NCBI RefSeq assembly: GCF_001192835.1
Contig: NZ_DF968182.1
Coordinates: 2,451,113 to 2,515,112 of the forward strand
From: Lentimicrobium saccharophilum
GTDB lineage: Bacteria; Bacteroidota; Bacteroidia; Bacteroidales; Lentimicrobiaceae
Length of the DNA: 64,000 nucleotides
Reading direction: 5' to 3'
A model generated the notes under the pieces. The model was given only the letters and a program-made list of their open reading frames with translations, was not told where the DNA came from and made no database searches. Made by a program: the position numbers and the translations under genes. Below, in pieces: positions 3,187 through 60,691 of this stretch (positions are counted from its first letter, which is position 1; each line of letters begins with the position of its first letter).

Positions 3187-3234
3187 CATGACATCTTTCA
3201 TTCTCCGAATGAACAACAAAATATTGATTAATTG

Positions 3235-9952: not shown

Positions 9953-9961
9953 CGGTGATAC

Positions 9962-12156: not shown

Positions 12157-12178
12157 TCCGGCACAATGCGCCGGCCAC

Positions 12179-13630: not shown

Positions 13631-13632
13631 AG

Positions 13633-15680: not shown

Positions 15681-15886
15681 GGCACAATGATTTTGGTGTA
15701 TAGATTTGAAATAACATCTGAGGCTGATGCAAAAATAACACCATAAACCAATTTTTTAAACAACAAATATGGTTTTGTAGACAAATTGCACTTGTCACGG
15801 GAATAAAAACTGAATTTCAGCGGTACGTCAGGCCAACTGCAAAACATTTACCATATTTGGCTACTTTAGCGGAATAAACAAGGGGT

Positions 15887-45380: not shown

Positions 45381-45547
45381 GACAAGGAGACGGGGGGACA
45401 AGGGGAAGGTAAGTCTGGGGACAAGGGGAAGGGGAGACAAGGAGACAAAGTGAAGAAACTACTGATTGCAACAGCAAGAACATAAATTACTTGAACACAG
45501 GAACACCAGAACACCAGAACACATAAACACCCGAACACATAAACACT
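45381..45547. repeat. two low-complexity tracts between the permease genes
   Basis: A purine-rich tract of GGGGACAAGGGGAAGG-like units (about 45381-45450) is followed by a run of ACACCAGA / ACACATAA / ACACCCGA-like units (about 45494-45547). The second tract ends just before the ATG of the next permease at 45556. Such tracts between cotranscribed genes are variable in many Bacteroidota. They are not coding in any supported frame. Confidence 0.8.
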
Positions 45548-45555
45548 TAACAACA

Positions 45556-46821
45556 ATGTTTGACCTCGATCGCTGGCAGGAAATTATGAGTGCACTGAAG
45601 AAGAACAAGCTGCGTACCTTCTTCACGGCATTTGGCGTGTTCTGGGGTATCTTTATGCTGGTGATCATGCTTGGATCGGGAACCGGGCTGAAAAACGGCG
45701 TTACCAGCGATTTCGGGGACTTTGCCACCAACAGCGTGTTTATGTGGACCCGCCCGACAACCGTCCCTTTCAAAGGCCTTCCGCGCGGGAGGAATTTTAA
45801 TTTCAAGGCGGATGATGTTGAAGCCTTGAGGCGCGAAATCCCTGAAATAGAATACCTGGCGCCCAGAACGCAGACCGGTGGCTTCCGCGGGGGCAACAAC
45901 GTGGTGAGGGGCACCAAATCAGGAGCATTCTCAATAATGGGAGACTATCCCGAATGGAACCTGATAGACCCCGTGGTGATTGACAACGGACGTTTCCTGA
46001 ACCATGCCGACATCAAAGAGAAAAGGAAAGTAGCCGTAATCGGCAACAAGGTAAATGAAGTGCTTTTCGCCCCCGGCGAAAATGCCGTCGGACAATACAT
46101 TCAGATACAGGGAATTTACTTTCAGGTAATCGGGGTCTTTAAACCGAAGAACTCAGGGGTAAACTTCGGCGGTGACAAAGAACAGAGCGTTTTTATTCCG
46201 CTTACCACCTTTCAGCGGGTTTACAATTGGGGCGATATCATCGGCTGGTTTGCCTTTACCTCCAAACCCGGGGTACCCGCTTCGGTGGTCGAAGAAAAAG
46301 CTTCGGCACTGCTCAGGAGACGCCACTCCGTTTCGCCCGATGATCCCCAGGCCATCGGCTCATTTAATCTTGAAAAGCAGTACAACCAGATGACCGGCCT
46401 GTTTGCCGGCATCAACGGACTGATCTGGATCGTGGGCATCGGCACCCTGCTGGCCGGGGTGATCGGCATCAGCAATATTATGCTGGTCATCGTGAAAGAA
46501 CGTACCAAAGAAATCGGGATACAACGGGCCATCGGCGCAAGCCCGCTCAACATCATCTCTCAGATCATCACCGAATCGGTATTTCTAACCACCTTCGCAG
46601 GCTATGTCGGACTGGTAATCGGAGTGGGAATCCTCGAGCTGGTGAACTATGCCCTGACCAACAGCGGCGGGGATTCGAACATGTTTCAGAATCCGAATAT
46701 AGATTTCAATATGGCCATCTCTGCACTGATAATTTTGGTTATTTCGGGAGCGGTGGCCGGATTGATCCCCGCCCGGAAGGCAGTCAGTATTAAGCCCATT
46801 GATGCCCTCAGGTATGAATAA
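45556..46821 (+). CDS. MacB-type ABC permease, second copy
   Basis: This is a 421-aa protein from the ATG at 45556 (MFDLDRWQEIMSALKKNKLRTF); the frame is open further upstream through the repeat tract. It is paralogous to the preceding permease along its whole length: N-terminal helix, periplasmic core, three terminal helices, IMLVIVKERTKEIGIQRAIGASP and PARKAVSIKPIDALRYE. Sequence divergence in the periplasmic domain suggests different contact surfaces. A heterodimeric exporter is the simplest reading. Confidence 0.9.
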   Translation: MFDLDRWQEIMSALKKNKLRTFFTAFGVFWGIFMLVIMLGSGTGLKNGVTSDFGDFATNSVFMWTRPTTVPFKGLPRGRNFNFKADDVEALRREIPEIEYLAPRTQTGGFRGGNNVVRGTKSGAFSIMGDYPEWNLIDPVVIDNGRFLNHADIKEKRKVAVIGNKVNEVLFAPGENAVGQYIQIQGIYFQVIGVFKPKNSGVNFGGDKEQSVFIPLTTFQRVYNWGDIIGWFAFTSKPGVPASVVEEKASALLRRRHSVSPDDPQAIGSFNLEKQYNQMTGLFAGINGLIWIVGIGTLLAGVIGISNIMLVIVKERTKEIGIQRAIGASPLNIISQIITESVFLTTFAGYVGLVIGVGILELVNYALTNSGGDSNMFQNPNIDFNMAISALIILVISGAVAGLIPARKAVSIKPIDALRYE

Positions 46822-46854
46822 ATCAAATGCGTTAACTCTCTAATTCAGCATACA

Positions 46855-47955
46855 ATGAAAAAGGTTCTTAAAATCGTCCTCGGCCTGGTAATTCTGGTGG
46901 TTTTTGCAGGCACCATCGTATATCTCTACCGTAAATCGCAGGCCAAGCCGGTAATTTATGAAACAACGGCGGCAACGGTTACCGATATCGTCAGGAAAAC
47001 CGTGGCTACAGGTAAGGTAGTCCCGCGCAAGGAGATAGAAATCAAACCGCAGGTCTCCGGCATTATTGCCGAACTCTATGTTGAGCCCGGCGAGAAGGTA
47101 AAAGTCGGGGATATGATCGCCAAGGTAAGGATAATTCCCAATATGATCAGCCTGAACGAAGCCGAATCAAGGCTTAACCGCGCCAGGATCTCGCTTGACG
47201 ATGCCCGGAAAAACTACGACAGGCAGAAATCGCTTTTCGAGAGCAGGGTAATCGCCGAGGCCGAACTTCAGACCTATGATGTGGCGCTGAAAACAGCCCG
47301 TCAGGATGTGGAAGCAGCCGAAAACAACCTTCAGCTTATCCGCGAAGGCATCACGAAAAACGCCGGATCCGCCAGCAATACCATTATCCGTTCCACCATC
47401 GCCGGGATGGTGCTGACAGTACCCGTTGAAGTGGGCAACTCGGTGATAGAGAGCAACACCTTCAACGACGGCACCACCATTGCCACGGTTGCCGATATGG
47501 GTGAAATGATCTTCAAGGGCAAGGTGGACGAATCGGAGGTTGGCAAACTGCACGAGGGGATGGAGCTGATCCTTACCGTCGGTGCCATTGATGCGGAAAG
47601 GTTTACCGCCAGCCTGGAGCATATCTCCCCGAAAGGGGTGGAGGAAAACGGCGCCATACAGTTTGAAATCCGCGCTGCCGTTTCGCTCAAAGAAAACCTT
47701 TTTATCCGCGCCGGATACAGCGCCAATGCAGATATTGTGCTGGAACGCCGCGACAGCGTGCTTTCGGTACAGGAGAGCCTGGTTAAATATGAGGGCGATT
47801 CGGCCTGGGTGGAAGTGGAAACCGGCCCGCAGACCTTCGAAAAACGCGTGATCAAAACAGGACTGAGCGACGGCATCAATGTGGAAGTGCTGGAAGGCAT
47901 CTCGAAAGAGGATAAAATTAAAATTCAAATTGCTCCGGCAACGGCGCCAAAATAG
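46855..47955 (+). CDS. MacA/HlyD-type periplasmic adaptor protein
   Basis: This 366-aa membrane-fusion protein has an N-terminal membrane anchor (~5-22). The barrel-sandwich pieces are VVPRKEIEIKPQVSGIIAELYVEPGEKVKVGDMIAKV and the paired GMVLTVPVEVGNSV. A short coiled coil (~100-155) and a beta-barrel (~200-290) follow. It links the inner-membrane ABC permease to an outer-membrane TolC-type channel, which is not encoded here. It is the last gene of the operon, followed by a terminator. Confidence 0.92.
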   Translation: MKKVLKIVLGLVILVVFAGTIVYLYRKSQAKPVIYETTAATVTDIVRKTVATGKVVPRKEIEIKPQVSGIIAELYVEPGEKVKVGDMIAKVRIIPNMISLNEAESRLNRARISLDDARKNYDRQKSLFESRVIAEAELQTYDVALKTARQDVEAAENNLQLIREGITKNAGSASNTIIRSTIAGMVLTVPVEVGNSVIESNTFNDGTTIATVADMGEMIFKGKVDESEVGKLHEGMELILTVGAIDAERFTASLEHISPKGVEENGAIQFEIRAAVSLKENLFIRAGYSANADIVLERRDSVLSVQESLVKYEGDSAWVEVETGPQTFEKRVIKTGLSDGINVEVLEGISKEDKIKIQIAPATAPK

Positions 47956-47985
47956 ATCATAACCTGACGTAAGAATATTTGCCAC

Positions 47986-48014
47986 AGCCCGGGATGAAAA
48001 TTTCCGGGCTTTTT
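47986..48014 (+). terminator. intrinsic terminator of the exporter operon
   Basis: The stem AGCCCGG / CCGGGCT (47986-47992, 48004-48010) with an 11-nt loop is followed by a T run. It lies 31 nt after the adaptor gene stop. Confidence 0.8.
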
Positions 48015-48249
48015 AGTGATTCCATTTCTTAACCGGAATGATGAATTTTAACGCTATCCCAGCTGAATAACATTTTGCTTCGCTGAACTCAACTCCTCTT
48101 ACGGATCGAATCACACATCACTTTGGACATTATTGAATTTTCGATTCAACAAAATTCTCTATATTTGATACGATATGCTAAAAGCTTGATAGGATCAAAC
48201 AATACCACCATAATCAATGCAGATAAGCTACTTTACAAAAATCGATTTT

Positions 48250-48951
48250 ATGAAAGTCACTGCTGTTTTATTATTCCTGTTCCCATGTTTCTTATCCTTA
48301 TCAGGACAGGAAAACACACCCAGAACTGTTGGGGTGATTTATGAATTGTCTGATTCCATTCATCAATATCATGTTGGATTTACCATATTCGAAAATTTCG
48401 AGAAAGTTTACCCGCAAAATAAGGGTACAAATAAAATTATCGAAGAAATGCTTAACCGGGAAATCAGATATATAACCGGACTGAAAGTTTACAAATTAAA
48501 TTATAGTTTTAAAGAAATAGATCAGATGATTAAAACGAAAGCAACTGATCCTATTTCGGCATACGATATTATTATGGTCATTCTGGATGAGGGGGTTACG
48601 ACATCATCCGGATATATTGTCAATACCCATAAAGGCAGGGGCGTTTTTACAAATTTTACCAGGGGTATCACCATATATGCAAACCTGGGCGTGGAATTAA
48701 TCAATACCTCCACGAACAAAAGAGTTATCTACGATTTAAAAAACAATGTGCTCAGCTCTGAAGGAGTAAACAGAGCTGTTTTCAGGTACAAGAAGAAATT
48801 CTTAGAATCCGGCGAAAGCAAGAAAGAAATCAGTGATGACAAGTTGACGGAAATACAAAACAACCTGCTGGAAATGTATCAAATGCAGGCAAAAAAGGCA
48901 TTTGATCCATATGTACTTTCTAAAATGGTTTCAGAATTATTCAAGCAATAG
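48250..48951 (+). CDS. secreted protein of unknown function
   Basis: This is a 233-aa protein from the ATG at 48250; an in-frame ATG at 48217 would put 11 residues before the signal peptide. The N-terminus is a signal peptide ending near LSLSGQ. The rest is soluble, with a repeated Tyr/Ile-rich beta pattern (for example RGITIYANLGVELINTSTNKRVIYDL) and a charged C-terminal helix. I do not recognise a family. The gene is clearly more AT-rich than its neighbours, so recent acquisition is possible. It stands alone, with AT-rich spacers on both sides. Confidence 0.6.
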   Translation: MKVTAVLLFLFPCFLSLSGQENTPRTVGVIYELSDSIHQYHVGFTIFENFEKVYPQNKGTNKIIEEMLNREIRYITGLKVYKLNYSFKEIDQMIKTKATDPISAYDIIMVILDEGVTTSSGYIVNTHKGRGVFTNFTRGITIYANLGVELINTSTNKRVIYDLKNNVLSSEGVNRAVFRYKKKFLESGESKKEISDDKLTEIQNNLLEMYQMQAKKAFDPYVLSKMVSELFKQ

Positions 48952-49454
48952 AGAATTCTTTAGTAGATATATTAACTAACTAAAGCAACGGCTTGACAAT
49001 TCCGGCAAGAGGTTTGGAAACATCAGATTTTCTGCCATTGTCTATGTTGAGAAGACTATGTAGCATTTCATAATTCAATTAAATATTTGCACCTCTGTGA
49101 TATATAACGATCGGAGTGAATCTACACCGGGCTGTTCATTAATAAATTCTTATGAATGATCAAGGAATACAATCAAGCCTCAGAAACCGGTGGTGACGTA
49201 ATTTAAGTCCTGGAGCGGGGAACGCCCGATACCGAAGTGTAGAACTATATATTAAAACTAACGAAAGAAAAATATAATTCCGGATTATTGGCTGAGGAAT
49301 ATATGGAAAGAACTGATTTTTAGCAGGATCATGAAATGCAATTAAAATAATATGGATTTGAAATTAATTACAATGTATAATATGCATGGATGCGGGCCCT
49401 TTTCGATTAAATTCGCGCTTACAAAATCTTATAGCAGGTAAAACAATAAGTAAT
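48952..49454. other. intergenic region without recognisable genes
   Basis: About 500 nt of AT-rich sequence. I found no protein-coding frame with a credible start and no tRNA-like fold. Confidence 0.35.
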
Positions 49455-50084
49455 ATGAAGAAAATAATTTTCGCACTATTTATCATTGTTCTGGTATTTC
49501 AACCGGTATCGGGATTTTCTCAATCATTTGCAAAAATTTACAACTCTCCGACCGACTTTTTCAATGGTATCTGCGACAGTTCTCAGGGAATAAGTGTAGA
49601 ACGGCGTACCCGGGGTCAGATCATTATGAATGGAGGCAACGACTTTAAGATTTCTTCTGAAGACAAAGTCCTCAGCAAGAAGCTGAAAAAACAAGTTTGG
49701 GGTGTAGTGTGCAACGACTCATTATTTATTAATGGCCGGCCGCTCAAACTGGGCGGTTCCTGGTATGGGTATACCGAGATAATTGGAAAAAGACTCTTTT
49801 TGCTTGCCGGCATACCACTCGATAAAGACTTTCAGGACCAGATGGCCATTGCCTCAATGATGGGTGGGCCACTCGTGGCAGGTATTGCAGGGGCCGATCT
49901 CGCTCTGGTAAGATATTACTATGAAGTATACCTGCCATACGGGTCCATTTCAATTTTGAAGAAAGAAAAAATGGCAGAATTGCTTGCAACCGCTCCTGAT
50001 CTTGCGCAAAGTTATGCCCTTGAGGAAGAACCGGAAAAGATTCCGGTTCTCAAACGCTACCTGCTTGAGTTGAAAAAACGATAA
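49455..50084 (+). CDS. secreted protein of unknown function
   Basis: This is a 209-aa protein from the ATG at 49455 (MKKIIFALFIIVLVFQPVSGFSQ), a good signal peptide. The mature part begins FAKIYNSPTDFFNGICDSSQGI and contains a short hydrophobic Gly/Ala stretch (ASMMGGPLVAGIAGADLALV, near residue 145) that could be a hairpin or weak membrane segment. A KR-rich tail follows. I do not recognise a family. It is next to, but on the opposite strand from, the peptide-maturase operon, and the two are convergent. Confidence 0.6.
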   Translation: MKKIIFALFIIVLVFQPVSGFSQSFAKIYNSPTDFFNGICDSSQGISVERRTRGQIIMNGGNDFKISSEDKVLSKKLKKQVWGVVCNDSLFINGRPLKLGGSWYGYTEIIGKRLFLLAGIPLDKDFQDQMAIASMMGGPLVAGIAGADLALVRYYYEVYLPYGSISILKKEKMAELLATAPDLAQSYALEEEPEKIPVLKRYLLELKKR

Positions 50085-50203
50085 TATTCCAAAGAGAACA
50101 AAAAGGACGCTATTTTCGAAAATAAGCTACCTGCTTTGAACTGTTTCATCCGCCCGGTAACTCTCCATCGATGCCACGCAACTTGCATAAGGTGAATTAC
50201 AAC

Positions 50204-50932
50204 TTACATCCCCCCCGAATCAAGAAAGAAGGTCTGTCCTGTCACAGTGTAAGCATCCTCCGAAAGCAGGTAGCTGATCATTGAGGTCACCGATTCGACG
50301 CTCACGGGGCTTTGCAGGGGCGAGCTGCTGATAAACGCCTCCTTGGCCCTGCCGGGGACTACGGCGCTCATGCCCAGGTCGAGGAATCCCAGCGCCAGGG
50401 CGTTTGAGCGGATGCCCTTACGCCCCCACTCCCGCGCTGTATTCAGGCTGAACGACTCCAGCCCTCCCTTGGTGGCGGCATACATGGCCAGACCGTTTAC
50501 CCCGGTTCCGGAACAAAACGACGAGATATGAATGATGCTTCCTCTGGTCTGATGCCTGATGAAATTCCGGATCACATATTTGGTGAGCAGCAGGGGCGTG
50601 GTCAGGTTCAGCCGGATCAGCTCCTCCACCTGCTTCTCCTGCATCCTGGGGATCAGTTCATTGTACGAAACCGCCGCATTGTTGATAAATGCGTGCAAAG
50701 GGGTAGTGGCCCCTATAAACTCATTAAAAATTCGGGTTTCTAACCCGCCGCTGTCGAGCAGGTCGTACGAAAGCCAGTTCAGCCTGCCGGGATACTGCCC
50801 GGAAAGTTTATCAAACTCAAGCGTGGTATTCCGGCTTATTCCGTAAACGGTCCACCCGCCCTGCCCAAGAAGCGACCGGGTGATCACGAGTCCAAGTCCG
50901 CGCGAAACGCCGGTTATCAATATATTTTTCAT
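50204..50932 (-). CDS. SDR oxidoreductase at the end of the maturase operon
   Basis: This is a 242-aa classical SDR with TGVSRGLG (residues 7-14), NNAA (84-87), Ser138, and the Tyr151/Lys155 pair in YAATK. It is a full-length, intact oxidoreductase. Its ATG overlaps the stop of the 185-aa gene (ATGA at 50929-50932), so it is translationally coupled to the maturase operon. A role as a tailoring enzyme, for example reducing or oxidising a modified residue of the peptide, is inference. A free metabolite could also be the substrate. Confidence 0.8.
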   Translation of the reverse strand: MKNILITGVSRGLGLVITRSLLGQGGWTVYGISRNTTLEFDKLSGQYPGRLNWLSYDLLDSGGLETRIFNEFIGATTPLHAFINNAAVSYNELIPRMQEKQVEELIRLNLTTPLLLTKYVIRNFIRHQTRGSIIHISSFCSGTGVNGLAMYAATKGGLESFSLNTAREWGRKGIRSNALALGFLDLGMSAVVPGRAKEAFISSSPLQSPVSVESVTSMISYLLSEDAYTVTGQTFFLDSGGM

Positions 50933-51486
50933 ATTCCGTTATTTTCAGGTGTTTTAAAACTCCGGTATGCGCTGATGACCGCCTGATCGGCCGGCCCGCT
51001 TTGCCGGTGGACAATAATGACTGCATTCAGTTCAGGTATTTCCACATACCTAAAGCCATGTTCGCGCGCAACGTCCGACAACAGGCTCCGGTATATCAGC
51101 AGCTTGCGCGACATTCCGCCCTTTGCGGGAATTGCTTCGTTGTATGCGTAACTTCCGCTCAATACCATGCAGGCCTGTGGTTCCTTTGTAAAGATTTCCA
51201 TCCTGAATACCGCGAAGCAGGTCTTCACCGTTTTCCGTATATTTACCTGATACCCTTCCAGGCTGGTGAGCCTTTTGAAACAATCGGCCTCATCGCGCCA
51301 CATGGCGGGGAAAAAGTCCGTGATATAGAGAAAATCCCCGAACCGGCTCAGGTTGTATAAATAGGTGAGTTTTTCCGGCCGGTTGAAACAATCCGCTTCA
51401 AAGCGGAACTGAACCATCCTGTTGAACGGCACATCGGCCCCGGGTTGCGGTTCGGAAAGGAAATAAGGATAAATGCCGTTTTCCAT
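50929..51486 (-). CDS. unrecognised 185-aa protein of the maturase operon
   Basis: This is a 185-aa protein from the ATG at 51486 (MENGIYPYFLSEPQPG), 5 nt after the stop of the last maturase gene; the frame is open further upstream inside that gene. No signal peptide or membrane segment is seen. It is a mixed alpha/beta soluble protein with four cysteines (in ADCFNR, ADCFKR, KTCF and QACM) and two near-repeats of the EADCF type at about residues 30 and 63. I cannot assign a family. Its tight position between the maturases and the SDR points to a role in the same pathway. Confidence 0.55.
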   Translation of the reverse strand: MENGIYPYFLSEPQPGADVPFNRMVQFRFEADCFNRPEKLTYLYNLSRFGDFLYITDFFPAMWRDEADCFKRLTSLEGYQVNIRKTVKTCFAVFRMEIFTKEPQACMVLSGSYAYNEAIPAKGGMSRKLLIYRSLLSDVAREHGFRYVEIPELNAVIIVHRQSGPADQAVISAYRSFKTPENNGI

Positions 51487-51491
51487 GATGA

Positions 51492-52901
51492 TTACTGATT
51501 GGTTTCGTAGGCAGGCGCCGCTGTACTGAAAACCCCTGACATCCAGAAACCGGGCTGTTGAACCAGGCATTGCAGCTTTTCGGCATCCGCGGCACTTTTC
51601 ACTTTCCTGAGAAGCGATTGCCGGGTAAATTCACGGGTAAAGCGGCAGACTTCGTCCAGCATTTCAGGCCTGTAAACGGAGGCCTGAGCCAGGCAACCGC
51701 CCCCGCAATGCCATCTTGCAAAGCAATTTTGACAGGCTTCACGGTTAAACGCATCGTAATTCATCAGACTGCTGAAGGCCGTTTCATCAAATGAGGGCTT
51801 GCCGTTCGCGCTGAGGCGACCATAACAAAATCCGCCGAAATCAGGGTCACCGGGCCACGACACCCTGTGGCAGACCGTGATGCGGCCATCCGGGACCAGG
51901 CAATACTCGCCTTCGCAGAAACGGCCCGAAATAGCATCGGTAAACAGGCCGTTAAGACAATAAACATCTATCCCAGACTTCAGCCCCAGTTCCCTGGCCC
52001 TGAAATAATTATCAATAAAATCGTTGTAAAACTTCCTGAGTTTTTCAGGGGTATCCAGTTGCTGAGGATCATCCACGGGCTGCAGTTTCACCTGCCGCAC
52101 ACCCGGGAAGTGCCCCGAAAGGTGCTCAACCATTTCTACCAGGCGGCTCACGTTTGCGCTGGTAATATTGGGTTTTATCAGCGGATGCAATCCGTAATCC
52201 AGCATGCGGAAGATATTTTCGCGCACCAGCCGGTAGTTTCCGCGCTGCAGGTTCTGCACATCCTCAAGCACCTCAAAAGAGACCCCGGGCGTAACAAAAC
52301 TGGCTTTCAATACATCAAGCATTTGCTGATTGAGGACCGATCCGTTGGTAGTGAAACCAATCCCCAGCCTGAAACCTTTGGCCCTGGAGCGCTTCCGGGC
52401 ATACTCTATACCGGCCCGCACCACATCCCAGGCAAGGGCAGGTTCGCCGCCTCCGAGAAATGATATGAACAAATCGCGGGAAGCCAGCCTTTGCGGATCA
52501 ATAAACCAGTCAAGCATGTCCTTTAATACGCTGAACGGTAACCTGCTCTGATCTGAATGGCTTCCGGCGGCATAACAGTAACTACAGCTGAAATTACAAT
52601 CGTAGTTCGGAATCACGGAAAGCTTGGTAATCTTGTTCGGATCGTAAACGGGTTTCTGAGGCTCCGTTGCCGGGATCAATTGCTTAAGAACCTCACCGGC
52701 AGGCTCCGGAGAATGAATTCTGTTAAGCGCAACCGTTTCCAGGCTGTCAAGACCATCGGGGGATACAAAAATCAGTTTGTACGCCAACGGCGAATAAACC
52801 ATAAATACAGCATGTCCCGGCAAGCCAAACCAGTCGCCGGCCGGCACCGGATATACTCCTGCCCTTGAAAGACCCGGCCATATGGAATTGGTTGCTGACA
52901 T
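51492..52901 (-). CDS. radical SAM/SPASM peptide maturase, paralogue F
   Basis: This 469-aa enzyme has the radical SAM ligands Cys102, Cys106 and Cys109 (CNFSCSYCY), the SAM-contact GGGEP (150-154), TNG near 185 and the shared VQNLQR motif (215-220). A complete seven-Cys SPASM region for two auxiliary clusters is present: Cys329, 344, 390, 393, 399, 403 and 419 (CFARWHCGGGC core). The first ~90 residues form a separate domain with VYSPLA, also found in the five neighbours. It starts 3 nt after paralogue E. SPASM maturases modify ribosomal peptides, often at Cys, by radical chemistry. The likely substrate is the 29-aa peptide at 57380. Confidence 0.88.
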   Translation of the reverse strand: MSATNSIWPGLSRAGVYPVPAGDWFGLPGHAVFMVYSPLAYKLIFVSPDGLDSLETVALNRIHSPEPAGEVLKQLIPATEPQKPVYDPNKITKLSVIPNYDCNFSCSYCYAAGSHSDQSRLPFSVLKDMLDWFIDPQRLASRDLFISFLGGGEPALAWDVVRAGIEYARKRSRAKGFRLGIGFTTNGSVLNQQMLDVLKASFVTPGVSFEVLEDVQNLQRGNYRLVRENIFRMLDYGLHPLIKPNITSANVSRLVEMVEHLSGHFPGVRQVKLQPVDDPQQLDTPEKLRKFYNDFIDNYFRARELGLKSGIDVYCLNGLFTDAISGRFCEGEYCLVPDGRITVCHRVSWPGDPDFGGFCYGRLSANGKPSFDETAFSSLMNYDAFNREACQNCFARWHCGGGCLAQASVYRPEMLDEVCRFTREFTRQSLLRKVKSAADAEKLQCLVQQPGFWMSGVFSTAAPAYETNQ

Positions 52902-52904
52902 AGG

Positions 52905-54260
52905 TTAATAAATGTTGTTTTCCGGTTCCTTCAATAGATCATTAATCCCTGATGGAACTGTCATTACCAGGTTATCATAAAGGAACCTGCGTGTAAATTC
53001 GCGGGTAAAGTTACAATGGGCATCCAGGGAGGCCTTATCCAGCCGGGTGCGTACCATCAGGCATCCGCCCCCGCAGTTCCAGCGGGCAAAACAGTCATTG
53101 CATTCAGGGTGTGCATGCAGGTCATCGTTCATCAGCCGGGTGAATTTCTCCATGTCAAACGTCAGCCTGTCATTGTCCGCTTTGCCATACACGCAGGCTT
53201 CATACCCCGTGTCGGAAGGTGCCGCAATGGTGTGGCAGATGCTGATGCTGCCGCCGGGGGTAAGGCAGAGCTGACCACGGCAGTATCGGGTGGTAAGACG
53301 GTCGAAACGCTCCATCAGGGAGCAGAAGAGATGCAGGCCGTTTTTACGGGCAAAATGCCGTGCCGCGAAAAAACCATCCAGGTAGCGGGTATAAAATGCT
53401 TCCAGTTCAACTGCTGAGGTAAAAAGGCTGTTGTCAACCACCGGATCGAAACTGAATTCGGTGATTGCCGGGAACCTGTGCCGCGCCTGTTGCAGCATTT
53501 CCACCTGCCGTCCGGCATTTCCGGGGGTAATGGTAGCGCTTACCGATGGAATCAATCCGGCATTCAACAGGCAATCAATGCCCGCGACCACCTGCCGGTA
53601 ATGGCCGCGTTGTTTTTGCTGCACATCTTCGAGAATTTCGAATGAGATGCAGGGATGAATGCCCGGGGCCAGCAGTTCACGGGCGATATCGTCGTTGATC
53701 AGCGCCCCGTTGGTCATCATCATCACGGTAAGTGAAAGGCCGTTCTGCGCTGCCAGCCGGCGCGCTCCGGCAATGGCCGGAAAAAGGACCCTTCGTAAAA
53801 GCAGGGGTTCTCCGCCGCCGGTGATAAAGATGCTTCGCTCCCTCGAGGATGAACGGCCGGCATCAAGCAGATGCCTGATGGCCGCTTCAAGTTGTTCAGA
53901 AGCAATTTCAGCCCCCGATCTGCTTCCGGCGGAGTAACAGTAACTGCAATGAAAGTTGCAATTAAATCCGGCAATAACCGATAGGGTATTGTATTCAAGG
54001 GGAGAAAAAACAGGTTTTACCGTCCGTACCGGTCTCAGCATGTTTTCATATTCACGGGGCATGCCCTGCGCTCCGCAACCGGTGAGCCAGGCTTCAAATA
54101 GGCCGCGTTTTTCAGGACTCAACAGCATCGCGGAAGCAGCAAAGGGTGCATAAAGAATGCTATGTTCCCTGTGCTCCGGCCGGAATTCAGGGCCGGGCGG
54201 GATCACGAAAACTTTCTTTGGTTCGGTTGCAGCTTGCTGATTCATACCTGCCTTATCCAT
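52905..54260 (-). CDS. radical SAM/SPASM peptide maturase, paralogue E
   Basis: This 451-aa enzyme has ligands Cys101, Cys105 and Cys108 (CNFHCSYCY), GGGEP, the shared VQQKQRGHY motif and the full SPASM pattern: RYCRGQ, SISIC, then CNDCFARWNCGGGC, then HCNF. The N-terminal domain carries YAPFA in place of YSPLA. The ATG at 54260 overlaps paralogue D by 8 nt; a second Met at 54245 would avoid the overlap. It is the most divergent in the GGGEP surroundings (FITGGGEPLLLRR), so it may act on a different residue or step. Catalytically it looks intact. Confidence 0.87.
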   Translation of the reverse strand: MDKAGMNQQAATEPKKVFVIPPGPEFRPEHREHSILYAPFAASAMLLSPEKRGLFEAWLTGCGAQGMPREYENMLRPVRTVKPVFSPLEYNTLSVIAGFNCNFHCSYCYSAGSRSGAEIASEQLEAAIRHLLDAGRSSSRERSIFITGGGEPLLLRRVLFPAIAGARRLAAQNGLSLTVMMMTNGALINDDIARELLAPGIHPCISFEILEDVQQKQRGHYRQVVAGIDCLLNAGLIPSVSATITPGNAGRQVEMLQQARHRFPAITEFSFDPVVDNSLFTSAVELEAFYTRYLDGFFAARHFARKNGLHLFCSLMERFDRLTTRYCRGQLCLTPGGSISICHTIAAPSDTGYEACVYGKADNDRLTFDMEKFTRLMNDDLHAHPECNDCFARWNCGGGCLMVRTRLDKASLDAHCNFTREFTRRFLYDNLVMTVPSGINDLLKEPENNIY

Positions 54261-55617
54261 TCATTTTTATCAACATACCGGACACCTCTTCCGGATTCAG
54301 TTCGGTCAGAGATTTTCCATACAGGTTATGGATTTGCGATTCCGCCTTTTCAAGCAATCCCCGTTTTACCATTTTCCGGGTAATGCGGCATACCTCCTCC
54401 AGATGCGCATCGCTGTATGTGGAGTTTCGGAAATGGCAACCTCCACCGCAATGCCATTTGGCAAAACAGGAATGGCATTTTTTATTCTCAAGCACATTAT
54501 CGTCAAGATGATGCCGGAAAAGATCCTGGTCAATCAGTGCTTTCCCTTCAGTGCCGGCCTGCCCGATGATAAATTCGGGGTATAGCGGGGATGCCGGGGA
54601 TGAAACCGCGAAACAGATGCTGTATTTCCCTTCGGCCGTGAGCGCGAGGCTTCCTGAGCAACCCCGTGCCCTGAGCGATGCGGCTTTGGCCAGCTCAATG
54701 CTGCTGATTTCCACGCCGGCAGCCTTTGCAACCGCCCTTGCCCTGACAAAATACCTGTAATAGTCGTCGAGGAAAGCGCCCAGCGCGACAGGATCAGCAA
54801 AAAGACCGGCATCCACCACAAAGTCGAAGGAAGCCCTGCGGATATCCGGAAAATTGCTGATAAGGGCGATGGCCATTTCTTCCTGACGGTGGACGTTAAG
54901 GGGAGTAATTACCGCATTGATGGTCGGGAAGATTCCGGCCGCCGACATGCGGTGAAGGTTTCGGCTGACCTCTTCGTACCGGCCGCGCTGGGCCTGTTGT
55001 ACATCCGGAAGGATATCGAAAGAAACGTTGGCCTTGATCTGATACTTCCGGATCAGGCTGAGCATTTCACGGTTCAGCAGCGTGCCGTTGGTTGCAAATG
55101 AAAAGCCGGTTTCAATCCCAAGTTTATCCGAAAGATCCGACGCCACCTCCACGCTTTCTTTAATCAGTTCCCACGAGAGAAAAGGTTCCCCTCCGCCTCC
55201 GAAAGAAATATAAAGTTGCCGGTTATTTTGTCCGTGAATGCTGATGAAATTCCGGATGGCGCCCAGGAGTACCTCCCGGTCAAGCCGCTGCTTACTCCGG
55301 CCGGCAGCCGCATAGCAATAGCTGCAGTTGAGGTTGCATATTTCGTTTGGCAGAATGGTGAGGGAAGAAAGCTGCGCGGGATTTGAAGCAATGGGATTTC
55401 GTTCCTTAACGGGAATAAAGTCAAGCAGCGGCCGGAGCGTTTCATCCGTCACAGGTGAGCCGGGATGATTGAGGCAGAGCTGTTCAGCCCGGGTAATTAA
55501 AGGATTGTCGGCCAGCACAGCATTCCCGGCAAGGGGAGAATACAGCAGGGATAATCCGGGATTTTCATCCGGGAAAAGGCAGAAAATTTCCGATTGGTTT
55601 AATGCCGGAGTGACCAT
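54253..55617 (-). CDS. radical SAM/SPASM peptide maturase, paralogue D
   Basis: This 454-aa enzyme has ligands Cys94, Cys98 and Cys101 (CNLNCSYCY), GGGGEP, VQQAQRGRY and SPASM cysteines in RGCSGS, KYSIC, CHSCFAKWHCGGGC and EVCRI. The N-terminal domain includes LYSPLAGNAVL. After the SPASM region a ~40-residue helical tail ends in EEVSGMLIKMNG. A 149-nt gap separates it from paralogue C, the largest gap among the tandem maturases apart from the peptide locus itself. Confidence 0.87.
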   Translation of the reverse strand: MVTPALNQSEIFCLFPDENPGLSLLYSPLAGNAVLADNPLITRAEQLCLNHPGSPVTDETLRPLLDFIPVKERNPIASNPAQLSSLTILPNEICNLNCSYCYAAAGRSKQRLDREVLLGAIRNFISIHGQNNRQLYISFGGGGEPFLSWELIKESVEVASDLSDKLGIETGFSFATNGTLLNREMLSLIRKYQIKANVSFDILPDVQQAQRGRYEEVSRNLHRMSAAGIFPTINAVITPLNVHRQEEMAIALISNFPDIRRASFDFVVDAGLFADPVALGAFLDDYYRYFVRARAVAKAAGVEISSIELAKAASLRARGCSGSLALTAEGKYSICFAVSSPASPLYPEFIIGQAGTEGKALIDQDLFRHHLDDNVLENKKCHSCFAKWHCGGGCHFRNSTYSDAHLEEVCRITRKMVKRGLLEKAESQIHNLYGKSLTELNPEEVSGMLIKMNG

Positions 55618-55766
55618 GCTGATCCAATATAGCTTTTAAGTCTTACTTAAACCATTTTTTGGTTAATTATCTTATCCTCATTCCATTACGGAATAATACC
55701 ATAATGCTCACATACCTGAATCCATTCATCTGATACATTGCGCCGGTCCATTTCCGGTGACAAGTT

Positions 55767-57131
55767 TCAGATAGCGGGATTGGCGGCTACCGAGGCTTTC
55801 AGGGTAGTCCCGTAATATTCAGCGTACTGTTTTTCAAGCCGGTCGAGCAGCACCCTGCGCACAAAGTTGCGGGTATAATCGCAGATTACCTCCTGCACCT
55901 CCGCACTATATATATACTGCTGGGCCTGACACCCGCCGCCGCAGTGGAAACGGGCAAAGCAATTGCTGCACTTTTCTTTTCTGAAAACATCGTCGTTGAG
56001 CAACCATGCATATTTCTCCCGGTCAATTTTCATCTCCCCGTTTTCAATCCGGCCAAAAATGCTGTCGGCATATCCGGGGTCCTGAGGCGCCGAAATCCGT
56101 GTGCAGATGCTGATCTCGCCCGAGGGTGTCAGACTGAATTCGCCGGGGCAGAAACGCTCAATCAGCAGGTTAATGTTGCGCGAAGCCGAACACTCCACAT
56201 GTATGCCGTGCTTTTCCCCTGCCTCCAGGGCGGCAAAGAAATTATCGGTATAGTCATCGTAAAAAGCCCTGAGCTGATCCGTATCCGTAAAGGAACCGTC
56301 ATCGGTCACAGCCTCCATCATCAGGTTATTGACAGGCCTGTACCTGAGGGCCACCTCTTCAACCATTCGTGTCATCAGTTTCACATTGGCCGTTGTAATG
56401 GTTGACCTGATGCGGGTATTGATGCCCGCTTCGAGCAGGCGCTGAAGGTTTCCGGCAACCAGCCCGTAATTTTTACGCTGCAGGTTCTGTATCTCCTCAA
56501 GAATCTCGAAAGATACCGAGACCATAACATCGTGTTTTTTCAGCAGTTCCAGTTGTTCATCATTGATCAGGGAACCATTGGTCACCAGGGAAAAGTCAAT
56601 GGTGAAACCACCCTTCTCAGCCAGCTCCGAGGCATACTCAATCCCATATTTTACCAGGTCCCACGAAAGCATGGGCTCTCCGCCGCCGAGGAAGGAAATC
56701 ACCAGCTCTTTGCGAATGATGCGCTCAGGATCGATAAACTTCTCCAGTGCGGTTTTCAATTGTTCTTTTTCGAGTACCCTTCCATTCCTGCCTTTGGCAG
56801 AATAACAGTAGCTGCAGGCAAAGTTGCATACGGAATTGGGCAGAACGGGAAGCCTGAAAAAAGTATCGGGCGATTCGCGGCGCGGAACGAGCTTTTCCAG
56901 CGGTTCATGATCCAGCAGGGCTTCCACGGTCTGCACAATGGTTTCATCGGTCACCTCCGGATCCCCTTTCAGGAATTGTTCCATCTTCCGGATGTTATCC
57001 GGTGTGGCGATCAGGGCGCTGTCGGCCAAAGGGGCATAAACGATGCAGACCGCGTCATCGGGCCTGCCGAAATAGGCGCCTGCAGGAATGCTGAAAATAT
57101 GGGATCTGTTAAGTAAAGGCGTTTCAGTCAT
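55767..57131 (-). CDS. radical SAM/SPASM peptide maturase, paralogue C
   Basis: This 454-aa enzyme has ligands Cys102, Cys106 and Cys109 (CNFACSYCY), GGGEP, IQNLQRKNY and SPASM cysteines in RFCPGE, EISIC, CSNCFARFHCGGGC and VICDY. The N-terminal domain contains VYAPLADSALI. It is the first maturase after the precursor peptide gene and its terminator, so its transcription probably depends on read-through. It resembles paralogue F in the IQNLQR motif and the SPASM core. It is the strongest candidate for the first acting enzyme on the peptide, which is inference from position. Confidence 0.88.
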   Translation of the reverse strand: MTETPLLNRSHIFSIPAGAYFGRPDDAVCIVYAPLADSALIATPDNIRKMEQFLKGDPEVTDETIVQTVEALLDHEPLEKLVPRRESPDTFFRLPVLPNSVCNFACSYCYSAKGRNGRVLEKEQLKTALEKFIDPERIIRKELVISFLGGGEPMLSWDLVKYGIEYASELAEKGGFTIDFSLVTNGSLINDEQLELLKKHDVMVSVSFEILEEIQNLQRKNYGLVAGNLQRLLEAGINTRIRSTITTANVKLMTRMVEEVALRYRPVNNLMMEAVTDDGSFTDTDQLRAFYDDYTDNFFAALEAGEKHGIHVECSASRNINLLIERFCPGEFSLTPSGEISICTRISAPQDPGYADSIFGRIENGEMKIDREKYAWLLNDDVFRKEKCSNCFARFHCGGGCQAQQYIYSAEVQEVICDYTRNFVRRVLLDRLEKQYAEYYGTTLKASVAANPAI

Positions 57132-57325
57132 GGGATGAAGATTAGCCTGGTTTGTAGTTTCACGGTACTATTTGCGGCAGGATTTCAACTTCCTGCAAAA
57201 TGGGGTAATGCAAATTTCAATATTTCCTGATTAAGAATAGGTCTAAATTGGTACCGGAACAGGAGGAGACGGGCATGAACCTTTGAAAGTTAATCCCGGC
57301 AGAAAAGTAAACCGGCAGTATGGCA

Positions 57326-57359
57326 TTAAAAAAGTGATGCTGCCGGGGCAGCATCACTT
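57326..57359 (-). terminator. intrinsic terminator directly after the precursor peptide gene
   Basis: A 13-bp stem (arms 57332-57344 and 57347-57359, AAGTGATGCTGCC and its complement, loop of about 2-4 nt) is followed on the minus strand by six Ts. It starts 21 nt after the peptide stop codon. It would make most transcripts end after the peptide and let a smaller share read into paralogue C, a common way to make precursor in excess of its enzymes. Confidence 0.88.
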
Positions 57360-57379
57360 CAATGGGGTTGTCAGGCGAA

Positions 57380-57469
57380 CTAGTTGTTGCACTTGCAACC
57401 ACCGCAATGATCACAGCATGCGTAAACACCTTTCTTCACGGTTTTTACCTTAAATACAACAGTAATCAT
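57380..57469 (-). CDS. Cys-rich RiPP precursor peptide (29 aa)
   Basis: This is a 29-codon gene from ATG 57469 to TAG. The first ~15 residues are a Val/Lys-rich, Cys-free stretch (leader-like). The tail YACCDHCGGCKCNN holds five cysteines (18, 19, 22, 25, 27) plus His21 and a GG pair. It lies alone in the 534-nt gap between maturases B and C, has a strong terminator right behind it, and is the only Cys-dense mini-gene in the operon. Short leader plus Cys-rich core next to SPASM enzymes is the standard design of thioether-type RiPPs. Too short for routine gene calling. I know no close named precursor family; expression needs proof. Confidence 0.82.
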   Translation of the reverse strand: MITVVFKVKTVKKGVYACCDHCGGCKCNN

Positions 57470-57556
57470 GGCAGGATAACTTTTGATGATGCCTACTTCT
57501 TTTTACAGTAGTCGTTCGGCATGTTTCTACTCGTGCGCACCAGGGTGCCGCTGATG

Positions 57557-57576
57557 CAAATATCTGATAAAATTTA
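57557..57576 (-). promoter_or_regulatory. candidate promoter of the precursor peptide gene
   Basis: In the 196-nt spacer before the peptide two near-matches to TAnnTTTG occur on the minus strand: GATATTTG (57557-57564) and TAAATTTT (57569-57576), each 7 of 8. A small hairpin GCACC-AG-GGTGC (57537-57548) would lie in the leader. The -33 element is unclear. Separate transcription of the peptide is likely from the layout, but the exact start is not established. Confidence 0.35.
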
Positions 57577-57665
57577 CCTTTTGTCCAGTTAAATATCGCA
57601 TTTCAACTTATTTATTCTGATTCTAAGTAAGGCTTTCAACCGTGTATCCGGAAGTTGCTCCCGGA

Positions 57666-59084
57666 TCAGCCAACAGGATAAACAGGAGAAATTTCATCTT
57701 CCTCTGATGAAAAGATTTGAAGTATATCCTCACCTTTATCGCGGAAATGCCTGCGTTGCACTCTGCCGGTCAGTTCCTGAGCCACCAGTTCGCGGGTAAA
57801 GTCGCAGAGGACTTCCAGGCGGGCTTCATCATACAGATCGTTGGGGCACATGCAACCACCGGCGCAGTACCATTTGGCAAAACAATGTTCACATTTGTTA
57901 AAACTATAAACATTTTCGCTGCAGATTTCCGAGAACTTCTCCATATCAAAACTCAGGTTGCCCTGATCGTCTGCCCAGCCATATACCCGTTTTTGAAAAG
58001 ATTTTTCGAGGGGGGACGACACGCAATAGCAGATGGTGAGGTCGCCCCGGGGGGTAAGGGTTAACTTGGGCGGACAGCCGCGGTCGAGGATTTCGCCGAT
58101 ATTGTTAAGAATACGGCACTCTATGATACAGCCCTTTTCGCGAGCCATTTGCCTTACACGGAAAATTTCCCTGGTGAATTTTGCATAAAAACCGCGCAAA
58201 TCCTGCGCTGTAGCGAATATTTCGGGGTCCACCACCGGCTCAAAGATCATCGATTTTACAGCCGGAAAACGCCTGAACATCCTATCGGCCATCTGATCCA
58301 TCCTTTCCACGTTTTCAGGGGTGATGGTTGCGTTCACCGAAGGCTCATGCCCGCTGCGGATCAGGCAGTCGAGCGTGGCCATCACTTTTTCATAGTGTCC
58401 GCGCTGTTTTTGCTGGACATCCTCCAGGATGTCAAACGAGATATTCGGCAATACCCTGTGCATTTTCAGGAAACCGGCCATTTCATCATTCATCACGGTT
58501 CCGTTGGTAATCAGGGTGATGTCCACCCTGAATCCCTGCTCACCGGCCCTTTTCCCGGCATATTCAATTCCCTTTTTCACCAGTTCCCACTCCAGCATCG
58601 GCTCTCCGCCCCCGATAAACGAGATGGTAAGGTAGCGGCTTTTCAGCCGGCCGGCATCGATGAAATAATCAAGCGCCCCGCTGAGCTTCTCCCAGCCAAG
58701 CCGCTCCGCTGAACGTCCGCCGGCAGCATAACAGTATGAACAAGAAAGGTTACACGCCTGAGTTGGCAGTATGGAAAGCTTTTGCAGATCCTTCGGAGCG
58801 GATATCCGGGCGATTCTGTCTCCGGCAGGGGTAATGCGGCTAAGGGCTTTGGCGGCTGTGGCAAGTTGAGGACTGACGTATCGGTTATTGTCATTCCGGA
58901 GCAGAGAATCAAGTTGCTGCACGGCATCGCCCTTTGCCAGCAACATGGCATTGGCCAGGGGTGATAATACCAGCCAGACATCCTGTTGCGTATGAACAAA
59001 ATAAACATCCCCCTGCCCAAGCGGGATAAAAAAATCCTTTATGTCCTGTGCGGCAGTTTTCATCATCCGGGCCTTTACATACAA
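57666..59084 (-). CDS. radical SAM/SPASM peptide maturase, paralogue B
   Basis: This 472-aa enzyme has ligands Cys111, Cys115 and Cys118 (CNLSCSYCY), GGGEP, VQQKQRGHY and SPASM cysteines in RGCPPK, LTICYC, CEHCFAKWYCAGGC and VLCDF. The core GGGC is AGGC here, and two extra cysteines (LTICYC, GGCMC) are present. The N-terminal domain carries VLSPLANAMLL. The start at 59084 overlaps paralogue A by 10 nt; Met codons at 59066 and 59063 are alternatives. It is the gene just upstream of the precursor peptide region. Confidence 0.87.
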   Translation of the reverse strand: MYVKARMMKTAAQDIKDFFIPLGQGDVYFVHTQQDVWLVLSPLANAMLLAKGDAVQQLDSLLRNDNNRYVSPQLATAAKALSRITPAGDRIARISAPKDLQKLSILPTQACNLSCSYCYAAGGRSAERLGWEKLSGALDYFIDAGRLKSRYLTISFIGGGEPMLEWELVKKGIEYAGKRAGEQGFRVDITLITNGTVMNDEMAGFLKMHRVLPNISFDILEDVQQKQRGHYEKVMATLDCLIRSGHEPSVNATITPENVERMDQMADRMFRRFPAVKSMIFEPVVDPEIFATAQDLRGFYAKFTREIFRVRQMAREKGCIIECRILNNIGEILDRGCPPKLTLTPRGDLTICYCVSSPLEKSFQKRVYGWADDQGNLSFDMEKFSEICSENVYSFNKCEHCFAKWYCAGGCMCPNDLYDEARLEVLCDFTRELVAQELTGRVQRRHFRDKGEDILQIFSSEEDEISPVYPVG

Positions 59085-60391
59085 TGATTTTTTGGTTTCC
59101 GGATCAGCAGATTGTAGAGCATGTCGCGGTGAAAATTACAGACTTCGAGAAGCTGCTCCACGCTGAAATGATCGCGGCAGGCAAGGCAGCCGCCACCGCA
59201 GTGCCATCGTGCAAAACAGTCGTTGCATTCGCTGAAATGCGCGGCATTGTATTGAAGGAGCCGGTCAAATTTCACCTGATCCATATCCGGTTTGCCCGAT
59301 AAAGTCACACTCCCGTAGCAGTACCTGTCATAGGCAGGATCGGATGGGGACGAAACCTTATGACACAAACTCAGGGTTCCTTCAGCCGTGAGGCAGAGGT
59401 ACCCCGGGCAAAAACGGTCGCGCAAACGGCTGAACTTTTCCAGTATGGTATTCCCCGTTTCCAATCCCTTGTCGCGGAAAGCCTCCCAGGCCCTGAAATA
59501 ATTCCTGACAAAGCTCCGGTAAAAAGCCGACAGATCTTCAGTGCCCGTAAAAAGACGCTTATCCATCACCGGATCGAAATTCACTTTTTTAACTTCCGGG
59601 TATGAATGATGCACCGCTTCCAGCATTTCCTCCATGCGTTCCACCCCTGCAGGGGTGATGGTGGTAAAAATTTCAGGGATAATCCCCCGGCTGATCAGCG
59701 TCCGGATATGCTTATGAACCTTCCGAAACGCGCCCCTCTGCTTTTGCTGAAGCTCTTCGAGAATCTCGAAAGAAACGCACACCCTTATCCGGTGGCGGAG
59801 CAGCGTGCGGATGATTTCTTCATTCAGGATGCTGCCGTTGGTAATGATCCTGATGTAGAGTTTAAAGCCACTTTCAGCCGCCAGATCCGCGGCGTAGTCC
59901 AACCCCGCGCTTATCAGGGGCCAGGAGAGCATGGGCTCGCCGCCGCCGGCAATCAGGATGTTCAGCTCACAGGGTTCAATGCGGGCAGGATCAATAAAGT
60001 ACTTCAGCATCGCCCTGAGCGCCTCCGGGCTTAACTCGCTGTCAGAGCGCCCCTTTGCCGAATAACAATATGAACAGGAAAAGTTGCATTTCTGGTTGGG
60101 AAGGATGGAGAGGGTGTCGCCCTGCCCGGGCTCTCTGTAATGATGCAGCACCTGTCCCCTACCGAACGCGAACAGGCCTTCGAGCAACTGTTCCGCTCCG
60201 GGTACGGTCGCGGCAGGAAGCCCGCCGCTAATCACTTTCTGCAGCATCATCACTTCCCCGCGCTCAGCAGCAGCAACATATCCCGACAAAGGAGAGAACA
60301 ACAGCATCCCTCCTCCGGCAATGGCCTGATCCTCCTCCCTGACCGGAATCGCATACACGCCTGCTTCGCTGAGTATTAAGAAGTCTGACAT
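59075..60391 (-). CDS. radical SAM/SPASM peptide maturase, paralogue A
   Basis: This 438-aa enzyme has ligands Cys102, Cys106 and Cys109 (CNFSCSYCY), AGGGEP, LQQKQRGAF and SPASM cysteines in RFCPGY, LSLC, CNDCFARWHCGGGC and EVCNF. The N-terminal domain has LFSPLSGYV. It is the first gene of the six-maturase run and lacks the long C-terminal tail of its neighbours. Together with B it lies upstream of the precursor gene, whereas C to F lie downstream. Confidence 0.87.
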   Translation of the reverse strand: MSDFLILSEAGVYAIPVREEDQAIAGGGMLLFSPLSGYVAAAERGEVMMLQKVISGGLPAATVPGAEQLLEGLFAFGRGQVLHHYREPGQGDTLSILPNQKCNFSCSYCYSAKGRSDSELSPEALRAMLKYFIDPARIEPCELNILIAGGGEPMLSWPLISAGLDYAADLAAESGFKLYIRIITNGSILNEEIIRTLLRHRIRVCVSFEILEELQQKQRGAFRKVHKHIRTLISRGIIPEIFTTITPAGVERMEEMLEAVHHSYPEVKKVNFDPVMDKRLFTGTEDLSAFYRSFVRNYFRAWEAFRDKGLETGNTILEKFSRLRDRFCPGYLCLTAEGTLSLCHKVSSPSDPAYDRYCYGSVTLSGKPDMDQVKFDRLLQYNAAHFSECNDCFARWHCGGGCLACRDHFSVEQLLEVCNFHRDMLYNLLIRKPKNHCM

Positions 60392-60691
60392 AGGAAGGTC
60401 AAAGATGAAAAGGATTTCGGAATTATCACAGTTTTTCAGACGTTTTTCAGGTATCCATTCTTCAAAACCGGCTGTTTGAACAGATTATTTGCGAGAAAAA
60501 TTAGCGTATCCGCTACACATGCAATTTCGTGCAGAACTTCAATGTAAAAATATCGCGGGACGCGGCGCCTCACATAACCGGTTTATTCTCCATTTCCAGC
60601 CAGCATACGATGTCTGAACGCCACCGGATGAACAGACTGTCCCTTACATTTCCGGCCTGATAAATGAATTACAGTAAATCAATCCAATCGC
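60392..60691. other. spacer before the maturase operon
   Basis: There are 300 nt between the transglutaminase-like gene and maturase A, both on the minus strand. I see no Cys-rich small ORF here comparable to the peptide at 57380. A near-match to the -7 box lies only 9 nt before the maturase start, too close to be convincing. The promoter for A and B therefore remains unplaced. Confidence 0.35.

Follow-up and report, generated by a model that had tools for sequence, protein, structure and literature searches.

Loci for ribosomally synthesized and post-translationally modified peptides (RiPPs) that rely on radical S-adenosylmethionine (SAM) enzymes mostly carry one or two such enzymes—some of the NHLP/Nif11 type aside—and one enzyme alone may install several links or carry out several steps (PMC8326336, PMC9413430); this picture is drawn from excerpts of open-access papers, as are all statements cited here by PMC number. 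Radical SAM enzyme counts tend to scale with precursor counts, with two enzymes per precursor in one clostridial cluster and "several" in NHLP/Nif11 loci (PMC4289311). Here, we describe a locus of Lentimicrobium saccharophilum in which six adjacent maturases of the radical SAM/SPASM type surround the gene of a single Cys-rich peptide of 29 amino acids (aa). It lies within a window of 64,000 nucleotides—the whole stretch of DNA that was analyzed, G000:C1:2451113-2515112, where G000 denotes the genome of this organism. What sets it apart from the radical SAM RiPP loci in these excerpts is the presence of five to six SPASM maturases beside a single 29-aa precursor.

The closest described systems each share part of this architecture. 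The PapB/freyrasin system combines a radical SAM/SPASM enzyme with a Cys-rich precursor as well, but there one enzyme installs six Cys-Asp links in CX3D motifs (PMC9413430), whereas here five to six enzymes accompany a core without CX3D. The SCIFF precursors associated with CteB differ in bearing six Cys in ~45 residues (PMC8326336). Thuricin CD, ruminococcin C, and NHLP/Nif11 loci also hold more than one radical SAM enzyme; in the excerpts covering thuricin CD and ruminococcin C, these are two enzymes each—for thuricin CD serving two peptides—compared with five to six for one 29-aa precursor here. Mycofactocin and pyrroloquinoline quinone (PQQ) resemble the locus by a very short precursor, a SPASM maturase, and a peptidase, and mycofactocin also by partners from the short-chain dehydrogenase/reductase (SDR) family (in part PMC8326336). 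Mycofactocin, however, uses one radical SAM enzyme (PMC8326336), and the window peptide lacks the Val-Tyr or Glu-Tyr end of the mycofactocin and PQQ cores. An initial annotation of this DNA, made from its letters alone, had stated that SPASM maturases usually occur once or twice per precursor and that a system with this layout is not known to have been described. In the open-access literature surveyed, which does not cover subscription journals and preprints, no paper was found to describe a single precursor with five or six SPASM maturases. The excerpts of a RiPP mining study of 1,136 Bacteroidales genomes contain no such layout and neither "M42" nor "short-chain dehydrogenase" (PMC10352776), "M42" is absent from those of a paper on leader proteases (PMC10885120), and those of PMC5682303 hold nothing on maturase arrays.

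All genes of the locus are encoded on the minus strand of the window. The array starts with maturase A (59075-60391; 438 aa), followed by maturase B (57666-59084; 472 aa from a TTG start or 466 aa from an ATG at 59066), the gene of the 29-aa precursor peptide (57380-57469; MITVVFKVKTVKKGVYACCDHCGGCKCNN), maturase C as the first class after the peptide (55767-57131; 454 aa), maturase D (54253-55617; 454 aa), an extra copy termed maturase E (52905-54260; 451 aa), maturase F (51492-52901; 469 aa), protein G (50929-51486; 185 aa), and an SDR (50204-50932; 242 aa; PF13561, E 8e-33). Five junctions—A/B, D/E, E/F, F/G, and G/SDR—overlap or abut within 8 bases in an operon-like manner, and intergenic gaps are found before A, on either side of the peptide gene, and between C and D. 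The initial annotation had placed six adjacent full-length paralogues (438-472 aa), the 29-codon Cys-rich gene, the 185-aa protein, and the SDR at these positions, and its claim of intact CxxxCxxC and seven-Cys SPASM motifs in six non-identical copies is borne out by a six-way alignment: CxxxCxxC, GGGEP, and seven invariant SPASM-type Cys near the C-terminus are present in all six, which are pairwise 33-42% identical. Membership of the radical SAM superfamily is evident from PF04055, which scores 51.7 (A), 56.4 (B), 61.7 (C), 55.1 (D), 43.5 (E), and 43.4 bits (F) against a cut-off of 29.5. Across 44 aligned maturases from the locus and its relatives, CxxxCxxC and the SPASM cysteine pattern CxxCx5CxxxC occur in 44/44 rows each.

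Among the best 25 NCBIfam families per maturase, none reaches its cut-off for any of the six. The best family is for all of them the ranthipeptide maturase PapB (NF047865; 66.1-121.7 bits versus 340), while the SCIFF maturase family TIGR03974 scores 52.0-106.2 bits versus 425 and the mycofactocin maturase family TIGR03962 33.9-40.7 bits versus 265 in four of the six, being outside the best 25 of the other two. By sequence, the nearest solved structure to maturase C is CteB (5wgg/5why; E 9e-28). A model of C—predicted alone and peptide-free, with a predicted local distance difference test score (pLDDT) of 78.5—superposes on CteB 5why with Z 24.4 and a root-mean-square deviation of 4.7 over 381 aligned residues, a match that spans residues 9-433 and includes the N-terminal domain, whose three strands followed by helices align with CteB from residue 9. 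TigE (8vpo) ties with CteB at Z 24.2 and a deviation of 4.5 over 382 aligned residues. TigE makes poly-cyclopropylglycine. This product agrees with PMC9062424, while the precursor of TigE is a different one and the window sequence gives no pointer to TigE chemistry.

The same system is present in eight more genomes, nine in total: Lentimicrobium sp. ACE_NR_BACT3 (G013), Bacteroidales UBA5833 (G004), Bacteroidales STF1_8 (G044), Odoribacter sp. UBA944 (G406), an uncultured Bacteroidaceae (G407), an uncultured Bacteroides sp. (G408), Candidatus Cryptobacteroides merdigallinarum (G409, on two contigs), and G1195. G407 and G408 (98-99% in the maturases) as well as G000 and G013 are near copies of each other. 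Relatives were collected by a search with C in 60 genomes, its own included, of which 35 match at E 0.001, mostly weakly and through other radical SAM proteins, and by scanning the species genomes of GTDB with orthologues of C, which returned 13 loci, five of them weak; G1195 came from a sample of family genomes, and L038-L042 (other radical SAM proteins, E 4e-17 to 4e-5) and L119 (viral scan, 8e-7) were left unused. Of the six-maturase arrangement, for which the initial annotation had suggested a search, five classes (A, B, C, D, and F) are common to all nine genomes, and E is found in the genus of the window alone. Gene order is A-B-peptide-C-D-E-F-G-SDR in this genus and peptide-C-D-A-F:G-B in G044, where F and G are fused. 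In G406, G407, G408, G409, and G1195—labeled gut-type here after the genus names of some—it is peptide-C-D-A-F-G-B-SDR-M42-methyltransferase, read for G409 over two contigs with C and D cut, and these five relatives add to the originally described content an M42 aminopeptidase (PF05343) and a methyltransferase.

A 29-aa open reading frame (ORF) of the same family lies upstream of C in 9/9 genomes with the system. It adjoins C in six; in G407 and G408, a 236-aa ORF intervenes, and in G004, a contig break separates the two, each of which lies at a contig end. The peptides of L033 and L103 start at an ATG within a longer open frame. Outside the genus of the window, the peptides are 62-69% identical to that of the window, with a Lys-rich N-terminus and a nearly fixed C-terminal CCDxCGGCxCNN. 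Five Cys fall into the last 12 residues, all nine aligned peptide rows—variants included—have five Cys, and core position 4 is His in the genus of the window and in G044. The aligned cores contain neither CX3D nor CX3E, the motifs of PapB precursors; their single Asp immediately follows CC. Compared with G004, the peptide gene shows three synonymous and no non-synonymous changes, and compared with G013 one and none. The 29-codon gene is thus a gene beyond chance, and homologous loci without it, which the initial annotation had allowed for, were not encountered among the nine. Of the two readings offered there, several modifications on one core is supported by the peptide at each locus, whereas peptides encoded elsewhere is rejected for this peptide family, though not for unrelated ones: a profile search of eight system genomes and the variant G410 (n=9, G1195 left out) found a single strong copy per genome at E 1.5e-11 or better and no second one, the next best matches being E 0.079 (G013) and 0.65 (G004).

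The system is rare. Matches were found in 4/393 genomes of the order (E 1e-45), 1/395 of the phylum (1e-40), and 3/301 and 4/247 in two family samples centered on holders, counts that take in the sample centers and divergent relatives. Of these 393, only G000, G004, and G044 are hit by the peptide profile, and the C profile hits the same three plus the divergent G199. A short precursor beside its enzymes and conserved together with them—the general hallmark of RiPPs—is found in 9/9 system genomes and in 3/3 C-orthologue genomes of the 393, with the divergent G199 lacking the peptide.

Trees were calculated from 11 and 44 maturase rows. In the latter, B (100/100, 7 rows), C (100/99, 6 rows), D (100/99, 6 rows), and F (100/99, 7 rows) each form one clade; A groups with the A of G004 and G044 (98/85), and A-type genes occur in all seven loci of the tree. 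The six class labels together need 5 changes on this tree, the minimum, compared with a mean of 22.8 after shuffling. B, C, D, and F are orthologous classes across families, A less cleanly so, and these classes are old, which contradicts an origin as unrelated recent insertions as envisaged in the initial annotation. E is placed within the A rows, though weakly supported (90/51), so that A and E may represent an old duplication. The dN/dS ratios of the six maturases amount to 0.07-0.26 versus G004, with 0.26 for E, and to 0.05-0.38 versus the much closer G013; all compared genes are under purifying selection. We take the maturase classes to stand for five distinct tasks on a shared substrate.

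The probable explanation for these observations is a RiPP pathway with a division of labor, in which five to six SPASM maturases would share the work on ~12-16 core residues. The 29-aa peptide would be the precursor, consisting of a Lys-rich N-terminal leader (approximately residues 1-16) and the Cys-rich core CCDxCGGCxCNN. RiPP recognition element-like N-terminal domains of the maturases might bind the leader, and A, B, C, D, and F—joined by E in the genus of the window—would act in turn, each probably making one position-specific change in the same short core. Such a change would most likely be a Cys-to-carbon thioether to Asp, Asn, Gly, or other residues; we favor thioethers since the nearest relatives, PapB and CteB, make them and since the core is Cys-rich with Asp, Asn, and Gly as possible acceptors. 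G might work with F, the SDR might adjust the redox state, and in relatives having them, the M42 aminopeptidase could trim the leader and the methyltransferase finish the product. The peptide would be made in excess of the enzymes, as a hairpin 3' of its gene is proposed to damp read-through. Modification of the peptide as such, the type and order of the modifications, the border of leader and core, the functions assigned to G, SDR, M42, and methyltransferase, and an influence of the hairpin on dosage are what we infer.

Divergent loci widen the range of this layout. L037 (SIG119, in G410) and L118 encode a 28-aa peptide ending CCDCFGGGCRCN(H/N) together with five SPASM maturases each, an M42 aminopeptidase, a B12-binding radical SAM protein, and a membrane-type protein; one maturase of L037 lacks GGGEP, and its last gene is formyltransferase-like. 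In L090 (G1044), a peptide of 34 aa is accompanied by two SPASM maturases and an M42 aminopeptidase as well as by a radical SAM protein that shares 50% identity with the B12 type of L037. The membrane-type protein of L037 and L118, conserved at 608-643 aa (L037 5072-6898; L118 9334-11265), may be a potassium channel-like partner given a weak, sub-threshold Slo-like RCK match in L118. The L118 locus (1107-16757), termed variant II, is found on an IMG/VR contig with a phage-type integrase—a tyrosine recombinase—and may travel on a mobile element. Since the number of maturases varies between 2, 5, and 6 at a constant five Cys, one maturase per Cys was rejected as a general rule, the ratio being 6 to 5 in the window and 2 to 5 in G1044.

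Several points weigh against the division of labor. Six maturases face five Cys in the window and two face five Cys in the variant G1044, and as PapB alone makes six links (PMC9413430), five enzymes need not mean five links. The modification chemistry itself is one that we infer. The divergent relative in G199 lacks this peptide and has other Cys-rich peptides, and no such peptide accompanies the divergent singles of G1246 and G1121 or the truncated relative of G033 (244 aa) in the stretches covered. On the tree, label A needs 2 changes because E falls among the A rows, and the 44 rows omit L118, G1121, the near copies G013 and L035, and those maturases of G409 that contig ends cut (C and D). 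The Pfam SPASM model PF13186 gives no score in the locus—its sole match in the genome lies elsewhere, and it is unlisted for the six at E 0.1—so that the SPASM label rests on the Cys pattern, the NCBIfam SPASM maturase matches, and the fold of C. Accessory genes are uneven too: 21 kb spanning the G044 locus hold no SDR, the locus of the window lacks M42 and methyltransferase, and M42 is absent from the genomes G000, G004, and G013 and sub-threshold in G044, where leader removal would hence proceed by other means or not at all.

Concerning these accessory proteins, G has no Pfam or NCBIfam match at E 0.1 and could not be placed in a known family—its best PDB sequence match, a microtubule protein at E 0.005, was taken as chance. 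It is linked to F by the 635-aa protein of G044 that unites both (34% identity over 174 aa, E 7e-34). Its predicted model (pLDDT 85.7) shows a GNAT-like arrangement, and the best VIA rows are mostly acetyltransferases; with Z 7.1 or less and no Foldseek row at E 0.001 or less, a GNAT-like nature of G is only a lead. An SDR homologue is found at the locus in 8/9 system genomes, and M42 is present in the five gut-type and in the variant loci. In G407 and G409, related proteins of 358-381 aa without Pfam match lie 3' of the methyltransferase (L034 20255-21331; L076 10752-11897, minus strand) and possibly are further locus members.

The product might be a small intracellular cofactor or metallophore derived from the peptide rather than a secreted antibiotic or signal—a refinement that is compatible with the division of labor and that we regard as tentative, somewhat short of an even chance. 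PQQ and mycofactocin are made from tiny precursors. The precursor here is tiny as well, SDR, M42, and methyltransferase would belong to the pathway, and no shared transporter family is recognizable in the flanks of nine compared stretches (ORFs of at least 100 aa, at most ~10 kb a side), a weak hint at an intracellular product; the MacAB-like genes beside the locus of the window also sit at the empty site of related genomes. On the other hand, no client enzyme was identified, exporters can be unlinked, the mycofactocin maturase model scores far below its cut-off, and the patchy distribution along with a relative on an integrase contig fits a secondary metabolite equally. More doubtful still is the full assembly line, in which five maturases, apart since before these Bacteroidales families diverged, would each make one change on a core of 12 to 13 residues, and an F-G pair—with G as possible acyltransferase—the SDR, an M42 trimmer, and a methyltransferase would complete a densely bridged intracellular cofactor or metal ligand.

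Alternatively, the maturases might serve the peptide while the array mostly reflects redundant duplication, one or two enzymes being enough. The paralogues are one family at 33-42% identity, the variant G1044 manages a similar peptide with two SPASM maturases, and E is confined to one genus. Yet B, C, D, and F each remain one clade across families, A-type genes persist in all seven loci of the tree, and purifying selection acts on all maturases between G000 and G004, whereas redundant copies are expected to be lost or converted over such divergence, which makes mere redundancy improbable.

With five Cys in its last 12 residues and His at core position 4 in the genus of the window and G044, the peptide could also be imagined as an unmodified, metallothionein-like metal-binding or thiol peptide beside enzymes that use a different, unlinked substrate. 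This is very improbable compared with the division of labor, as peptide and C orthologue occur in the same three of 393 genomes, are neighbors wherever one contig spans both, and no second precursor of this peptide family was found in nine genomes.

The peptide gene is framed by elements that might bear on its expression. TAnnTTTG is the promoter consensus of Bacteroidota, and a possible promoter element upstream of the peptide (57557-57564, minus strand; GATATTTG) deviates from it by one mismatch, while ATATTTGCATC is common to the upstream regions of the window, G004, G013, and G044. The 5' leader of the peptide gene holds an inverted repeat, found by eye and identical in G004 and G013 (57489-57522, minus strand; ATGCC..CTACT / AGTAG..GGCAT). 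A terminator-like hairpin with a T run is located just 3' of the gene (57324-57364, minus strand), with z -4.3 against mononucleotide shuffles and a range from -2.9 to -5.8 over 11 loci; a hairpin follows the stop codon of the peptide in all loci folded (11 in one set, 10 in another), and the T run is not universal, being missing in L118. The notion that the ORF is a regulatory leader peptide, with stalling at Cys codons controlling read-through of the hairpin and the enzymes acting elsewhere, would explain why the short Cys-rich ORF precedes a hairpin throughout both sets of loci, but is hardly credible and was rejected: the 5' arm of the hairpin pairs with the coding region no better than in mononucleotide shuffles (z -1.4 to 0.7, 10 loci) and no antiterminator pairing was found in these loci, the Lys-rich N-terminus, D, GG, and CN are conserved as amino acids and not Cys alone, A and B lie upstream of the ORF in the window, and SPASM enzymes of this kind act on peptides.

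A DUF805b RNA (RF02914)—a candidate cis-regulatory RNA—is placed immediately before the peptide gene of gut-type loci and of one variant locus at 39-50 bits (L033 9737-9773; L034 9033-9067; L036 6228-6262; L037 714-748; L103 16063-16097, minus strand). L090 bears a look-alike that is unreported at the gathering score, and G000 holds two sub-threshold copies at other places, in front of other genes. At the gathering score, the RNA is absent upstream of the peptide in the genus of the window, G044, and G1044, and with other copies preceding seemingly unrelated genes (by eye), a role as dedicated riboswitch of the system was rejected. No paper on DUF805b, or on DUF805 with a riboswitch, was found in the open-access literature searched.

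Further radical SAM loci came up beside the system. L053 (G199; 4543-6588) is a distinct radical SAM and M42 locus with approximately four small Cys-rich ORFs of VSEL/VSNL-type start and a tyrosine recombinase-like gene nearby (by eye). L077 (G410:C26; 1003-5051) encodes a second M42, two radical SAM-like proteins, and an 86-aa Cys/Gly-rich ORF, perhaps as another RiPP system. L105 (3746-6097, minus strand) encodes a 783-aa protein with 33 Cys and a radical SAM-like start, which matches maturase F over 411 aa and is possibly a two-domain maturase.

Within the genus of the window, protein G of the system is present in 3/19 genomes and the 887-aa gene upstream of the locus in 18/19. Of the 15 genus mates that have the 887-aa gene without the locus, eight were viewed. 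Six of these eight show an empty site, where the 887-aa gene converges on the homologue of a gene that borders the locus of the window (46855-47955); L135 ends too soon, and the neighbor in L142 is another window gene. Between aligned ends, the mates hold 132 bp (L140), 260 bp (L141), 870 bp (L138), 1.8 kb (L139), and 5.3-5.4 kb (L136, L137), compared with 12.7 kb in the window. The locus was hence gained in one lineage or lost in others, of which gain in one lineage is the simpler reading. The interval from the MacA-like gene to the 887-aa gene (47956-60691) may be an insertion hotspot of the genus, the mates holding 0.1 to 5.4 kb of other DNA. The MacAB-like genes (by eye; 45466-47955) were rejected as product exporter of the system, as their homologues lie beside the 887-aa gene in mates without the locus. 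A plasmid home was rejected as well: 96 plasmid records match, all below 60% identity, and the five matches listed amount to 23.5-31.5%.

A set of many enzymes that is found again in different families, next to a single very small core, offers a clear test of how site, order, and regiochemistry are divided among maturases—the more so as a 29-residue peptide is easy to synthesize. Should the product prove to be a cofactor or metal ligand, it would join PQQ and mycofactocin as another compound of peptide origin, here in Bacteroidales.

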